From NCBI RefSeq assembly GCF_009177065.1, contig NZ_WEZF01000014.1, positions 1 to 64,000 on the forward strand: DNA of 64,000 nt, in the 5' to 3' direction. The DNA comes from Tautonia marina. Its GTDB lineage: Bacteria > Planctomycetota > Planctomycetia > Isosphaerales > Isosphaeraceae. Every line of letters starts with the position of its first letter. The stretch's first letter is position 1. Below the pieces are notes generated by a model, which had not been told where the DNA came from, searched no databases, and was given only the letters and a program-made list of their open reading frames with translations. A program made the translations under genes and the position numbers. Below are positions 38,467 through 43,199 of the stretch, in pieces.

Positions 38467-39366
38467 TCACTGAGGCTTTAACGCGAAGACTCGGACGCTG
38501 GCGGCGTAGTCGTTCACGTTGTACCGACGGAGCAGTTCGGCCAGGCGATCGTGAAAGGCCGCGTCGTCTGGAGCCACGGCGGGGGTGGGGGAACAGCACC
38601 CGGTCTCGGCGATTGGCAAGGCGCCGGAGGTAGGCGACGCCGGGGCCGGTGGTGAGCAGCAGGCGGCCTGGTTCTCGACCTTCGCGTAGGCGTTCAGGTC
38701 GGCCCCGGTGTCCACCACCTCGACGGCCGAGAACCCGGCGTCGAGCAACAACTGCCGATATTCAGGAATCAGCACGGCCCCGGCAATGCAGCCGACGTAG
38801 GCCATCAGGTCGTTGCCGAGTTCCTCCGGAAGATCCTGCTTCAGGGCGATATCGCTCACGGCCAGCCGACCACCCGGCTTCAACACGCGGACGATCTCGC
38901 GGAAGACGGCCGACTTGTCCGGAGCGAGGTTGATCACGCAATTGCTGATGACACAATCGACCGATGCGTCGGGCAAGGGCAAGGCGTCGATCGAGGCCAG
39001 GTGAAACGCAACGTTCGTCGCGCCGGCCTTCGCCGCGTTTTGCTCGGCCAGGGCGATCATCTCGGGGGTCATGTCGATGCCGATTGCCTTGCCCGACGGC
39101 CCCACCTTCTTCGCGGCGAGCAAGACGTCGAGCCCCCCTCCCGAGCCGAGGTCGACCACCACCTCCCCCTCGCGCAGGTTCGCCGTCGCCGTCGGGTTGC
39201 CGCACGAAAGGCCCATGTTCGCCTCGCTCGGGATCGAGGCCAGCTCCTCCGTCGAGTAGCCGAACGCCTCGGCCACCGCGCGCACCCCTTGCTGATCGCT
39301 CGACAGGCCAAAGCCCGCGACCGATCCATACTTCGCCTTCACGGCCTGGGTGATGGATTCCGACAT
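38467..39366 (-). CDS. arsM: Arsenite S-adenosylmethyltransferase
   Basis: A 299-residue protein. The SAM-binding core has '[20 protein letters not shown]' and 'GIDMTPEMI'. The arsenic-binding Cys residues appear as Cys55 in 'NMGLSCGNP' and in '[10 protein letters not shown]' and 'YVGCIAGA', as in ArsM. A 65-residue C-terminal extension has CC pairs ('ACCSPP', 'GCCSP') that may also bind metal. It methylates As(III) to volatile or less toxic species. It ends a minus-strand operon after arsR and arsC, 43 bases downstream of arsC. Confidence 0.93.
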
Positions 39367-39409: not shown

Positions 39410-40096
39410 TTAGAGAACTCGGGTCAAGGCGTGAAGCATCCATCGGGCCAGTTCGTCGCGACGCTCGGCGTAACGAAGCGATTCGACGGGAGAACCGTCC
39501 GCCTCTTTCGGATCGGCAAAGGGAATGGACACGCGGAGCGCAGCCCCCGGCACGACGGGGCACTCGTCGGCGGCCTCGTCGCAGACCATCAGGGCGGCAA
39601 ACCCAGATCGAGGATTGCTGGCGTCATCATAACGCTTCGAGAACTCGATCGCCTCCGTTTCCGGGTTGCCCGGCACGGTTCCCCAGCGGACCCGGTAGAC
39701 CGGATTCGGCAGACCGGAACGACCCGACGGAGCCTGCTCGCCGGTCGGCTCGATGACCACGCCGATCGCCTCCAGCGCGGCGATGGTCCGGGGGTTGAAG
39801 GCACTCGGCTCGGTCCCACCGCTGAACATCCGGATGTCGGGCAGACCAACAGACGCGGTGGCAATGTTCCCCATCGTCGCGCCGAGGATGCTCCGCCGAC
39901 TGTTCCCGGTGCAAACCACGATCACCGGCGAGTCCTTGCCCGCCTCGCGATTCCTCGCAATCCAGCCGCCCAGAGCCTCGGCCATTTCCCGATGAGCGAT
40001 CGGCGTCACCCCCCGGGCACGACCCTCGCCCAGTTGATCAAGATGCGCGGCAACCGCGGGAAGCAAGAGCGATCGGCGGTTGGGCTTCACGGTCAT
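39410..40096 (-). CDS. Arsenate reductase-like low-molecular-weight protein tyrosine phosphatase
   Basis: A 228-residue protein with the CX5R P-loop '[14 protein letters not shown]' (Cys62). It is longer than classical ArsC of this fold (about 130-140) owing to an N-terminal helical extension and a loop with '[18 protein letters not shown]'. The C-terminal 'MVCDEADEC'-like stretch (residues near 180) holds further Cys. The context between arsR and arsM makes reduction of arsenate the likely job. The ATG at 40096 has GGAAG upstream; a GTG at 40174 overlapping the arsR stop is an alternative, but an operator-like dyad at 40134-40149 lies in between. Confidence 0.85.
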
Positions 40097-40133
40097 GATC
40101 GCTTCCGATGCTGGCCGGGTGTCTGAACCCTTG

Positions 40134-40149
40134 ATTCGTGAAACCGAAT
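40134..40149. promoter_or_regulatory. Candidate ArsR-type operator between arsR and arsC
   Basis: ATTCGTGAAACCGAAT is a 16 bp dyad (ATTCG-N6-CGAAT) placed 37 bases before the arsC start. It matches the spacing of ATTC-N8-GAAT dyads at 40579-40594 and 42260-42275. Confidence 0.5.
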
Positions 40150-40170
40150 ATAGAAACGCAAAAAAATGAT

Positions 40171-40542
40171 TCACTTACTGCAACAGGCGATGAGCCGATC
40201 GAGCCTCCTGCGATCTTCGCGCAGCAGCTCGATCGGGCCGAGGCACGAGCCGACACTCTCGATCAACGTCCGGTGCAGGCCCGATCTCGGCTTGGCCAGG
40301 CGGTAATGGACCCAGAGCCCTTCCTTACGACCGACCACCAGGCCGAGCTTGCGGAGGGCGGCCAGGTGTCTCGAAACGGTCGGTTGCGGTAAGCCGAGCG
40401 CCTCGTGCAGGTGGCAGACGCAGACCTCGCGATCGCCGACGAGTAGGTTCAAGAGCCGCAGTCGCACCGGATCGGCAAACGCCTTGAACAGCGCGGTCGA
40501 TTCGGCCAGGGTCGGCGAGGTGTCGGCGGCCGTGGGGTTCAT
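40171..40542 (-). CDS. arsR: ArsR/SmtB family transcriptional repressor
   Basis: A 123-residue protein. The winged helix has the As(III)-binding motif 'EVCVCHLHEALGLPQPTVSRHLAALRKLGLV' (the ELCVCDL type), with two Cys spaced CVC. The C-terminus ends CCSK, which could contribute a third ligand. It represses the ars operon until As(III) binds. It is the first gene of the minus-strand ars operon, and its promoter region carries a 16 bp dyad at 40579-40594. Confidence 0.92.
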   Translation of the reverse strand: MNPTAADTSPTLAESTALFKAFADPVRLRLLNLLVGDREVCVCHLHEALGLPQPTVSRHLAALRKLGLVVGRKEGLWVHYRLAKPRSGLHRTLIESVGSCLGPIELLREDRRRLDRLIACCSK

Positions 40543-40578
40543 CGGTCGGTCAGGTTCTGGGACACCGGGATGCGCTTA

Positions 40579-40594
40579 ATTCACTTTTCCGAAT
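40579..40594. promoter_or_regulatory. Candidate ArsR operator upstream of arsR
   Basis: ATTCACTTTTCCGAAT has ATTC and GAAT half-sites with the same 8-base spacing as the dyads at 40134 and 42260. It lies 37 bases before the arsR start (40542), a position that suits autorepression. Confidence 0.5.
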
Positions 40595-40721
40595 ATACGC
40601 CGACCTCATTCAAAGGTCAAGGGAAACCGGCGTCGGTCCGCATCGACCGCGCCGATTTCCCTTGCTTGATCCCCCATCGTCGGGGACATACCCGATGCCG
40701 CCGGCCGGAACGCAGTGAACG

Positions 40722-41264
40722 TCAGGCCGTCGCCGTCGAGGGCTTGCTGGCCAGCAGCGCGGTCTGGAAGCCCCGGACGACGGCGGCGATGCGCACGGCG
40801 TCGTGGACCTTATCCTCGCCGGCTCCTTCCTTGATCAACGCGTCTTCATGAGCCTTGATGCACGCTTCGCAACCGGCCAGGGCCGCGCAGGCCAGCGAGG
40901 CCAGTTCGAACGTGGTCTTGTCGGTGGCCGGCCGGGCCATGCGGCTCATGCGGAGGCCGGCGGGGCGGTGCTGGTAGGCGTCCTTGCCCACCATGTGGCG
41001 GAAGCGATAGTAGGTCGTGTTCATCGCCATCAGGGCTGCCGCCGCCTTCGCGTCGGCAACCGCGGCGTCGTCGAGCGCCTCGCGGCCGTCGTCGGCGATC
41101 GCCTCGGCCAGCGCGGAGTCGTTCAGAAACAAGGCCGAGGTCAGGGCCACGGTGTATCGTTGCTTCGGGTCGAGGCTGCCGCCGCCGAGGACCGAGCCAA
41201 GATTCAGGCGCAGATCTTTGGTGTCATCACCGAGCGATTCTTTCATCGGGTCAAGCAGCGACAT
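40722..41264 (-). CDS. ahpD: Alkylhydroperoxidase AhpD
   Basis: A 180-residue protein with the AhpD active site CEACIKAH (Cys132, Cys135, His139), close to the positions known for mycobacterial AhpD. It is all-helical, with 'MNTTYYRFRHMV' before the active site as in the family. It reduces AhpC through a lipoyl partner and has weak peroxidase activity itself. It lies 361 bases after ahpC in the same direction, separated by a REP-like hairpin. Confidence 0.92.
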   Translation of the reverse strand: MSLLDPMKESLGDDTKDLRLNLGSVLGGGSLDPKQRYTVALTSALFLNDSALAEAIADDGREALDDAAVADAKAAAALMAMNTTYYRFRHMVGKDAYQHRPAGLRMSRMARPATDKTTFELASLACAALAGCEACIKAHEDALIKEGAGEDKVHDAVRIAAVVRGFQTALLASKPSTATA

Positions 41265-41625
41265 GAGCAAACGACTCCTCAAGCAAATCTGCCACCCGAA
41301 CACCAGGGCTCAGGATCGGCAATCCGAACAAACATGATTTGATTCGATGTTCAGAGAAACGTGATCCGACACGCGATCGACGCGCCGCGAACGCAAACCT
41401 CGCGGATGCGTCCCACACGCCAGGCTCGCGCGTCGGTTCGTTTGTCCCTCTTGGCTCAACCTCCGGCCTCCCTCTCCCCGATTGCGGGGAGAGGGCCGGG
41501 GTGATGGGCCGTTGGCCCGCGCGCGACGCTCCGCGTCACGTCCTCACTCCCTCGTCCGGCGTTCGGCCACATGCTTCCCAGGGTCGGAAAACGAGGTCGC
41601 ACGGGGAGACACGTCGATCCGTCGA
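41265..41625. other. 361-base intergenic region between ahpC and ahpD
   Basis: It holds the REP-like hairpin 41461-41499, listed separately. No convincing gene. An isolated ATTCG half-site at 41342 without its partner is the only other element noted. Confidence 0.4.
41461..41499. repeat. REP-like hairpin downstream of ahpC
   Basis: CCCTCTCCCCG-ATTG-CGGGGAGAGGG forms an uninterrupted stem, extended by CCGG/CCGG at both ends after a small bulge. This CTCTCCCC palindrome type is common between genes of many bacteria and may protect or end the ahpC transcript. Confidence 0.6.
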
Positions 41626-42153
41626 TCAAACCTTGATCGTCTCTTCACCCTTCTTCCAGTTGCACGGGCACAGCTCGCCCGACTGCAAGGCGTCGAGCAC
41701 CCGGATGATCTCGTCCACGTTGCGGCCCACCGACAGGCCGTTGGCCGTGGCAAACTGGATCGTCCCCTCGGGGTCGACGATGAAGGTCGCCCGCAGGCAA
41801 ACCCCTTCTTCGGGGTGCAGGATGCCCAGATCGGCGGCGAGCTTCTGGGCGCCGATGAGCGGGTACTTCAGGCCCTTCAGGTCCTCGTGCGACTGGCACC
41901 AGGCCAGGTGGCTGAACTCGTTGTCCGTGCTCCCGCCCACGACCATCGCGTCGCGGTCCTGGAACTCGCCGAGCCGCTTGTTGAACTCGGCAATCTCGGT
42001 CGGGCACACAAACGTGAAGTCTTTCGGATAAAAGAAATAGACGACCCACTGCCCCGGGAACGACTGGTTGTGAAAGGTCGTCAGGCTGTCCTTCGCGGAT
42101 CCCACGCAGCCGTGGGCCTGAAACTTCGGAAAGCTTTGTCCAACGGTCAGCAC
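41626..42153 (-). CDS. ahpC: Peroxiredoxin (AhpC-type)
   Basis: A 175-residue two-Cys peroxiredoxin. The peroxidatic Cys50 lies in 'PKDFTFVCPTE' and the C-terminal resolving region is 'GELCPCNWKKGEE'. It also has 'FSHLAWCQSHEDL'. It reduces hydrogen peroxide and organic peroxides, recycled by AhpD. The likely start is the GTG at 42153 with AGAGGACGAG upstream, because the residues before it are not family-like. It is divergent from oxyR, with a 155-base shared control region. Confidence 0.92.
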   Translation of the reverse strand: MLTVGQSFPKFQAHGCVGSAKDSLTTFHNQSFPGQWVVYFFYPKDFTFVCPTEIAEFNKRLGEFQDRDAMVVGGSTDNEFSHLAWCQSHEDLKGLKYPLIGAQKLAADLGILHPEEGVCLRATFIVDPEGTIQFATANGLSVGRNVDEIIRVLDALQSGELCPCNWKKGEETIKV

Positions 42154-42259
42154 GGCTCTCGTCCTCTGCCTTCTGGCAAGATCATGACACACTCGGGCCG
42201 GTCACTCCGGCCAGACGGCCTCGCGGCGCGTCGTTCTTGCTGGAGTTATAGAGGATCTG

Positions 42260-42275
42260 ATTCGATAAGTCGAAT
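42260..42275. promoter_or_regulatory. Dyad in the ahpC-oxyR control region
   Basis: ATTCGATAAGTCGAAT is a perfect dyad (ATTCGA/TCGAAT) with an inner TTCG...CGAA that fits the LysR T-N11-A box, so OxyR may bind it. It also has the same ATTCG-N6-CGAAT form as the site before arsC. Confidence 0.55.
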
Positions 42276-42308
42276 GGATTTTCCCGATCAGTTTGATAAA
42301 CTTTGCTT

Positions 42309-43199
42309 ATGGACATTGTGCAGCTTCGCTCGTTCCTGAAAATCGCTGACCTGGGCAGCTTTACGAAGGCGGCCGAGGAGCTGGGGGTCTCTCAGCCGGC
42401 GCTTAGCCAGCAGATGGCCCGGCTTGAGGGCGAGCTGGGCCGGCCGGTTCTGGAGCGCGCCGGGCGAACGGTCCGCCTGACCGACGCCGGACGATTGCTC
42501 CTGCCCCGGGCCGAGCGCATTCTCGCCCTGGCCGACGACACCCGCCGCGAGCTGCTCGACGACGGCCGGGCCGGTCGGGTGGTGGTGGCGGCGATCCCGA
42601 CGATCGCCCCGTTTTTGCTTCCCCCCGTGCTCCGCGAGTACCGCCGCGAGCACCCAGGGGCCTCGGTCCAGGTCGATGAGGAGGTGACCGAGACCTTGCT
42701 CCGCCGTTGCCAGCGCGGCGAGATCGACGTCGGCGTCTTCGCCCTCCCGGCCGAGGCCCCGGCTTCGCTTGAGGTCGAGCCTCTGTTCGAGGAGGAGCTG
42801 GTGCTGGCCCTGCCGGCCGACCACCCGCTCGCCCGGCTCGACGCCGTGCCGCTCGACGCCGTCCGGGGCGAGCCGTTCGTCCTGCTCGGCGAGGGGCATT
42901 GCCTCTCCGACCACATCCGCAGCTTCTGCCAGCAACGCGCCGTCCAGCCGATCAGCACGGGCAAGACCGGCCAACTGGCCACCGTCCAGGAACTCGTCGC
43001 GCTCGGCCACGGCGTCTCGTTCGTCCCCGAGATGGCCCGCCGCGTCGACGCCAGCCCCCACCGCGCCTACCGCTCGATGCTCGGCGACCGCCCCCGCCGC
43101 ACCATCGCCGCCTGCTGGAACCCCGACCGCTACCAGACCCGCCTCGCCCGCGCCTTCCTGGAACTCCTCCTCGCCTACCGACCGAGCGATCCCGCCTGA
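42309..43199 (+). CDS. oxyR: LysR-type peroxide sensor OxyR
   Basis: A 296-residue LysR regulator. The helix-turn-helix is 'SFLKIADLGSFTKAAEELGVSQPALSQQMARLEGELG'. The effector domain has Cys198 and Cys207 in 'GEGHCLSDHIRSFCQQ', almost exactly the redox pair of E. coli OxyR (199 and 208). Peroxide forms the disulfide and activates ahpC. It is divergent from ahpC, the classic arrangement. The start is the ATG at 42309; a TTG at 42303 is also in frame. Confidence 0.93.
   Translation: MDIVQLRSFLKIADLGSFTKAAEELGVSQPALSQQMARLEGELGRPVLERAGRTVRLTDAGRLLLPRAERILALADDTRRELLDDGRAGRVVVAAIPTIAPFLLPPVLREYRREHPGASVQVDEEVTETLLRRCQRGEIDVGVFALPAEAPASLEVEPLFEEELVLALPADHPLARLDAVPLDAVRGEPFVLLGEGHCLSDHIRSFCQQRAVQPISTGKTGQLATVQELVALGHGVSFVPEMARRVDASPHRAYRSMLGDRPRRTIAACWNPDRYQTRLARAFLELLLAYRPSDPA

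Follow-up and report, generated by a model that had tools for sequence, protein, structure and literature searches.

Two predicted ArsR operators flanking arsR in Tautonia marina, next to a probably separate OxyR-type control of ahpC and oxyR

The window, a 64,000-nucleotide stretch of the planctomycete Tautonia marina (contig NZ_WEZF01000014.1, positions 1 to 64,000), carries arsenic detoxification (ars) genes beside a divergent ahpC–oxyR pair, and three dyads of the form ATTC-N8-GAAT lie among these genes. The region very probably holds two separate local switches side by side, namely ArsR with two operators, one upstream of arsR (O1) and one between arsR and the following arsC-like gene (O2), and an OxyR-like regulator acting at ahpC and oxyR. 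Judged by conservation and sequence context, the two ars sites are real and conserved, putative ArsR operators, and the simplest account of them would be ArsR autoregulation through both. The third dyad is probably no ArsR operator, and would be a coincidental look-alike in an OxyR-type promoter. The ars pair offers an ArsR operator, conserved and open to testing, in a bacterial group where we found none in the open-access literature searched and where the ars genes usually carry two operators, while a tempting joint arsenic–peroxide regulon is set aside as unsupported.

The dyads and their frequency

A sequence-only reading of this DNA had placed the three dyads at 40134-40149 (the internal, arsC site; ATTCGTGAAACCGAAT), at 40579-40594 (the arsR site; ATTCACTTTTCCGAAT) and at 42260-42275 (the ahpC–oxyR region, no strand assigned; ATTCGATAAGTCGAAT), and a check of the window confirms each of these positions. 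The same reading saw the longer form ATTCG-N6-CGAAT in two of them, and the dyads starting at 40134 and 42260 do have it. The arsR dyad lies 36 bases from the arsR ATG (40542), the internal dyad 37 bases from the ATG of the arsC-like gene (40096), and the third dyad 33 bases from the oxyR ATG and 106 bases from that of ahpC.

The bare formula occurs at 80 places in the T. marina genome (7,069,583 bases), which corresponds to 0.72 expected per 64 kb window and, at this genome-wide rate, to a probability of about 0.037 of at least three per window; when the window was shuffled 100 times with its dinucleotides preserved, 8 of the shuffled sequences also had at least three matches. Because the motif is this common, the dyad formula alone is weak evidence and cannot tie the three sites together. 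Occurrence at chance frequency had been named as what would refute a common element, and the outcome is divided, since the bare ATTC-N8-GAAT does occur at that level genome-wide and the longer TATATTCG form, searched in 45 genomes, does not. On the ars coding (minus) strand, both ars sites read TATATTCGG...GAAT, and it is solely through this shared TATATTCGG context and through conservation that they stand out.

Two predicted operators flank arsR

O1 (40576-40597, minus strand; TATATTCGGAAAAGTGAATTAA) contains the dyad 40579-40594 and overlaps the -10 element of the arsR promoter, while O2 (40131-40152, minus strand; TATATTCGGTTTCACGAATCAA), with the dyad 40134-40149, follows arsR and precedes the arsC-like ATG. 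When a 22-base matrix trained on 45 sites from other genera was run over the 127,958 positions of the window on both strands, O2 ranked first (24.9 bits) and O1 second (21.2 bits).

Conservation was followed in 30 arsR loci of 18 genera, with 30 of the 45 family genomes contributing a single locus each; two close homologues in G018, one in G038 and the 15 genomes with only distant homologues (E at least 5.8e-13) were left out of this sample. With leave-one-genus-out training, sites of at least 12 bits were found upstream of arsR in 25 loci and just after arsR in 27, both sites being present in 22 of the 30 loci and 14 of the 18 genera, against one of 410 control stretches scored in the same way. 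In the four genus members, neither ars site shows a change at any of the eight dyad bases, while of the eight middle bases two are invariant and six vary; this comparison used one of the two tandem dyads that follow arsR in G042, the other being likewise a perfect dyad. The proposal that arsR and the ars gene after it are each preceded by the same ArsR-type element is thus borne out by the matrix ranks and the 30 family loci, and the test that had been suggested for it, conservation of the dyads in relatives, finds both ars sites conserved in most of these loci as well as in the four genus members.

The exact string TATATTCG-N6-CGNAT occurs at 26 places in 22 of the 45 family genomes, compared with two for the backwards control. 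An ArsR-family gene adjoins 23 of the 26, identified by tblastn at 22 and by homologue search at the window's own place; the three places without arsR (G008, G013 and G016) were read by translation, without family models. In G383 and G335 (loci L112 and L114), which belong to other families of the same class, arsR is flanked by the same operator pair. The gene that follows the internal operator differs between the family loci, so the internal operator goes with arsR and not with one particular downstream gene. Judging from their translations, these following genes would be acr3, arsM, arsC or other.

Several points weigh against reading the two sites as conserved operators. One site falls below the threshold in 8 of the 30 loci, the upstream one in L008, L027 and L032-L034 and the downstream one in L016, L028 and L030. 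The 22-base matrix partly measures the promoter -10, and a consensus search supplied its initial training sites, which inflates their scores. Furthermore, two of 420 stretches in an earlier control scored 20.1 and 29.2 bits; some stretches of that set reached into arsR regions belonging to short loci, and these were excluded from the set of 410. A sequence-only covariance model was of no use, giving no match in the T. marina genome and E values of at least 0.17 in the window. Among the four dyad places of that genome read by translation, without family models, as further ArsR targets (L095-L098, out of the 80), none lies at an evident ars gene; a relaxed search allowing up to two mismatches gave 44 places.

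The arrangement varies in some relatives. Two tandem perfect dyads without a T-tract follow arsR in L008 (G042), where arsR is inverted relative to ahpC. In G036 and G037, the stretch from arsR to the next gene holds two TATATTCG dyads in opposite orientation with a spacing of 30 bases, and no upstream operator was found within 120 bases of arsR in either genome. In L011, L013, L014, L017, L018 and others, the operator extends with its right half up to or into the probable start codon of arsR, the starts being inferred from alignments. In many relatives, arsR may hence be read from a nearly leaderless mRNA; in T. marina, the ATG lies 36 bases further on.

The repressor and the genes it would control

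The arsR gene (40171-40542, minus strand) encodes a 123-residue repressor of the ArsR/SmtB family, with the ArsR-type winged helix indicated by NCBIfam NF033788 (9.8e-27, above cut-off) and Pfam HTH_5. Its Cys41 and Cys43 lie in a CVCHLH motif and are present in all 30 aligned family homologues, and C-terminal cysteines occur at the positions of Cys100, Cys120 and Cys121 in 21, 21 and 20 of the 30, respectively. His46 stands where R773 ArsR, with its CVCDLC motif, has a cysteine as third ligand. The third arsenic ligand of the window protein may be C-terminal, at Cys100, Cys120 or Cys121.

The arsR promoter, TTGACC-17-TATATT (40592-40620, minus strand; -35 at 40620-40615, -10 at 40597-40592), is the sole sigma-70-type match in 40100-42350, with 10 of 12 bases, shuffled sequences giving a mean of 0.3. 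An inverted repeat thus lies over the repressor's own promoter, the dyad 40579-40594 overlapping the -10 at 40592-40597. Downstream, the arsC-like gene (39410-40096, minus strand) encodes 228 residues with a CX5R motif (CTGNSRR). Thioredoxin-type arsenate reductase models match it at 1.7e-9 and 5e-8, below their curated cut-offs, and there is no Pfam match, so that its role is a guess from the place of the gene and the motif. It is followed by arsM (38467-39366, minus strand), an arsenite methyltransferase gene (NF008823, 3.3e-85, above cut-off).

From the observed sequences, positions, conservation and protein families, we infer the following scheme of binding, repression and signals. ArsR would repress arsR and the following ars genes through two TATATTCG-N6-CGNAT operators, O1 on the -10 of the arsR promoter and O2 between arsR and the arsC-like gene, and its binding would block RNA polymerase, as is expected at O1, within which lies the -10 of the arsR promoter, a good sigma-70 promoter. 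Release of ArsR would follow once arsenite or methylarsenite is held by Cys41, Cys43 and possibly one of the C-terminal cysteines, and arsR, the arsC-like gene and arsM would then be turned on. The divergent ahpC/oxyR pair would be controlled by the redox-cysteine LysR-type regulator (OxyR) from a conserved block at about 42264-42310, and the third dyad would be a chance symmetry at the edge of this block and not an ArsR operator.

The internal operator and its T-tract

The two operators differ in their promoter context. Among the family loci, a -35 element of at least four of six bases accompanies 25 of 26 sites upstream of arsR and only 3 of 27 internal sites. O2 is instead preceded by a T-tract, T7 on the coding strand (40160-40166, minus strand), located seven bases before its TATATT. 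A run of at least five T precedes 17 of the 27 internal sites, none of the 26 upstream sites and 53 of 6000 random 22-mers, and the gap between the run and TATATTCG is exactly seven bases in 15 of the 17, the remaining two having gaps of eight and nine. As the spacing between the run and the arsR stop codon is not constant among the loci, the run goes with the operator. The internal TATATT is itself conserved, its first three bases being T in 22, A in 24 and T in 23 of the 27 sites. The second promoter for arsC-arsM that had been suggested at this site consequently survives in part: a -10-like element is kept, but a -35 is rarely found and a T-tract stands before most of these sites.

What O2 does can be envisaged in several ways. 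Tentatively, T7-N7-TATATTCG-N6-C(G)NAT might be a distinct type of control point governed by ArsR, acting as a promoter in which a fixed T-tract replaces the -35 or as a repressor roadblock after a U-rich tract. Taken by itself, the roadblock is rather doubtful: ArsR bound after the U-rich tract would stop or release polymerase coming from the arsR promoter, and arsC-arsM would be transcribed only once arsenite has removed ArsR. The general lack of a -35 at the internal sites and the T-tract, with its fixed distance from TATATTCG in 15 of the 17 cases, speak for such a mechanism, yet a pure roadblock would have no need of the conserved internal TATATT unless this is part of the operator. It is unlikely that the T-run is the tail of a terminator after arsR with an internal promoter merely behind it. 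A predicted stem does end just before the run in a few loci, such as L007 and L015, but in the window more than 10 bases separate the end of the predicted stem from the run, the scan lists no terminator-like site at this place, and the run keeps its distance to the operator and not to the arsR stop codon. Moreover, when the 40 bases before the run were folded and compared with 100 mononucleotide shuffles each, z lay between -1.5 and +1.5 in the 22 of 30 loci examined, the other 8 having no run of at least four T within 60 bases of the arsR stop. An intrinsic terminator at the T-tract was rejected, as the hairpins are no stronger than those of shuffled sequence and none is listed in the window. 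Repression at O2 is the favoured reading of the sequences, whether of a T-tract-leaning promoter or as a roadblock, a terminator tail seeming less likely.

The T-tract was also considered as a general promoter class and rejected: T6-N7-TATATT occurs at 20 places in the 45 family genomes (9 of them adjoining an arsR homologue) and its backwards control at 10. T6-N7-TATATTCG is not enriched in 392 genomes of the phylum (20 places versus 17 for the control), where an ArsR-family gene adjoins three of the 20 places, the window's own and those of G335 and G383, from the same class. Next to arsR, the T-tract internal element is kept in loci from three families of one class, whatever ars gene follows, and an element of this kind without a -35 is the part of the system that may interest transcription specialists.

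The ahpC–oxyR region

Between the ars genes and the third dyad lie an ahpD-family alkylhydroperoxidase gene (40722-41264, minus strand; TIGR00777 at 1.3e-40, below its cut-off of 191.95 bits, the AhpD core domain TIGR00778 above cut-off, and Pfam CMD) and a gene for an ahpC-like peroxiredoxin (41626-42153, minus strand; Pfam AhpC-TSA at 2.6e-30, above its gathering score, and TIGR03137 at 4.5e-41, below cut-off). On the other side is the gene of a LysR-type regulator (42309-43199, plus strand), whose best match in the PDB is 6g1b (9.8e-41), a 'Hydrogen peroxide-inducible genes activator'; both redox cysteines, nine residues apart, align with Cys198 and Cys207 of the window protein. It does not reach the cut-off of the OxyR equivalog model NF008361 (155 bits versus 329), and we therefore call it OxyR-like, without membership as defined by that model. 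A second gene, 53% identical to this one, is located elsewhere in the genome (G000:C1:335439-336296).

The left half of the third dyad reads ATTC, GTTC, CCGT and GGAC among the genus members, while GATAAGTCGAAT is invariant, and the right part of the dyad belongs to a longer conserved ahpC–oxyR promoter block, of which nine further ahpC–oxyR loci retain ATAA and a few other bases. The invariant AGTCGA may also serve as the -35 of ahpC (TCGACT, 17 bases, TATAAC, minus strand); this was noticed by inspection, and the promoter scan does not contain it. Adjoining the dyad is an OxyR-like box, ATGG-N7-CGAT-N7-ATAA-N7-TTAT (42274-42310, plus strand), which matches 12 of 16 bases and ends on the first two bases (A and T) of the oxyR start codon. 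No other position of the window, the ars sites included, reaches 11 of 16 (one strand was scanned, the motif being its own reverse complement). The box is the best match at the same offset in 12 of 13 ahpC–oxyR loci, with scores of 10 to 12, and at least 11 is reached in 7 of the 13 loci against none of 299 control stretches, six of which reach 10.

These figures have to be read with caution. The G033 box is weak, tying at 8 of 16, and two of the 16 matches are the start codon itself, without which the scores fall to 6-10 of 14. Counted in this way, the window box (10 of 14) is one of four window positions that good, the offset is best in 8 of the 13 loci and tied best in 2, and 10 is reached by two of the 299 controls and 9 by a further 12. 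The loci are also related, so that the kept offset is partly common descent. The OxyR reading therefore rests on the conserved block, its position and the neighbouring gene together and not on the box score by itself.

One regulator, chance or two switches

The sequence-only reading had gone further and proposed a single regulator, ArsR or OxyR, that would act at all three dyads and so link arsenic detoxification to peroxide defence. This is quite improbable, although several observations favour it. The 16-base core of the ahpC site scores 12.9/14.5 bits, not below the 11.5 of the arsR site, and with a core as good as this ArsR might touch the ahpC dyad, a binding that we consider unlikely from the sequences but that would count against two separate switches; cores of 12.3-15.6 bits are also reached by 4 of the 410 control stretches. 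The ars and ahpC–oxyR genes adjoin within the genus, the third dyad of G041, the closest sister, has a single base change, and a link between ArsR and redox responses has been proposed elsewhere, in 'Beyond Repression: ArsR Functions as a Global Activator of Metabolic and Redox Responses in Escherichia coli' (PMC12821715). Against this, G040 and G042 have lost the left half-site, the third dyad scores 6.9 bits with the full matrix (rank 7) and has no ars-type TATATTCG context, and no OxyR box of at least 11 is found at the ars sites or elsewhere in the window. The conserved promoter block with its OxyR-like box accounts for the ahpC–oxyR region, and where homologues of arsR and oxyR share a contig in other genomes they are 0.57 Mb (G004, one contig) or 4.6 Mb (G032) apart.

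A joint ArsR–OxyR regulon, which would require the same operator to be conserved at ars and at ahpC–oxyR, is accordingly not supported, the left half-site varying within the genus: the supposed common element is reduced there to the right half of the dyad, next to which an OxyR-like box lies at an offset that is fixed in most loci. It is by missing conservation and context that the third dyad seems to be set apart from the ars sites. Extremely improbable, finally, is that all three dyads are chance matches to an eight-base motif, as the 80 genomic places and the three matches reached in 8 of 100 window shuffles could suggest; the cross-genus conservation and the flanking context at both ars sites speak against it, and this explanation stands for 42260-42275 only.

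Comparison with known systems

The formula ATTC-N8-GAAT is given as the recognition sequence of the ArsR-family protein SqrR and is also found at the promoter of YgaV, which binds over the RNA polymerase site of that promoter and represses it (PMC9774250). The ars sites described here have the same formula as those of the sulfide-responsive ArsR-family group SqrR/BigR/YgaV, so the dyad type is already known for ArsR-fold proteins. These regulators respond to sulfide, whereas the window ArsR has a CVC motif, sits with an arsC-like gene and arsM, and does not reach the BigR equivalog cut-off (45.3 bits versus 155). In Thermus thermophilus, one ArsR/SmtB protein, TtSmtB, serves two adjacent genes, each with a dedicated promoter to which it binds (PMC5658604); its operator sequence and the neighbouring genes are different, and no T-tract element is seen for TtSmtB in the portion of the source available. 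In the open-access literature, we found nothing recognisable as dealing with paired ars operators with a T-tract or with ArsR operators in this bacterial group.

With respect to OxyR sites (ATAG-N7-CTAT-N7-ATAG-N7-CTAT), the window box at oxyR/ahpC has 12 of 16 matches, and candidate OxyR sites of Pseudomonas aeruginosa have 10-13 among the rows listed from PMC5720770. The window box differs in extending into the start codon of oxyR, from which two of its matches come, and in a family drift to NNNN-CTAT-ATAA-TTAT.

The autoregulated ars operons of P. putida and Arsenicibacter rosenii have, according to PMC11868830 and PMC7994332, an ArsR operator that overlaps the arsR promoter, as is predicted here. 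In A. rosenii, where arsRMC share one promoter, the protected sequence differs from that of the window. Compared with both operons, a second operator between arsR and the next gene recurs in the planctomycete loci.

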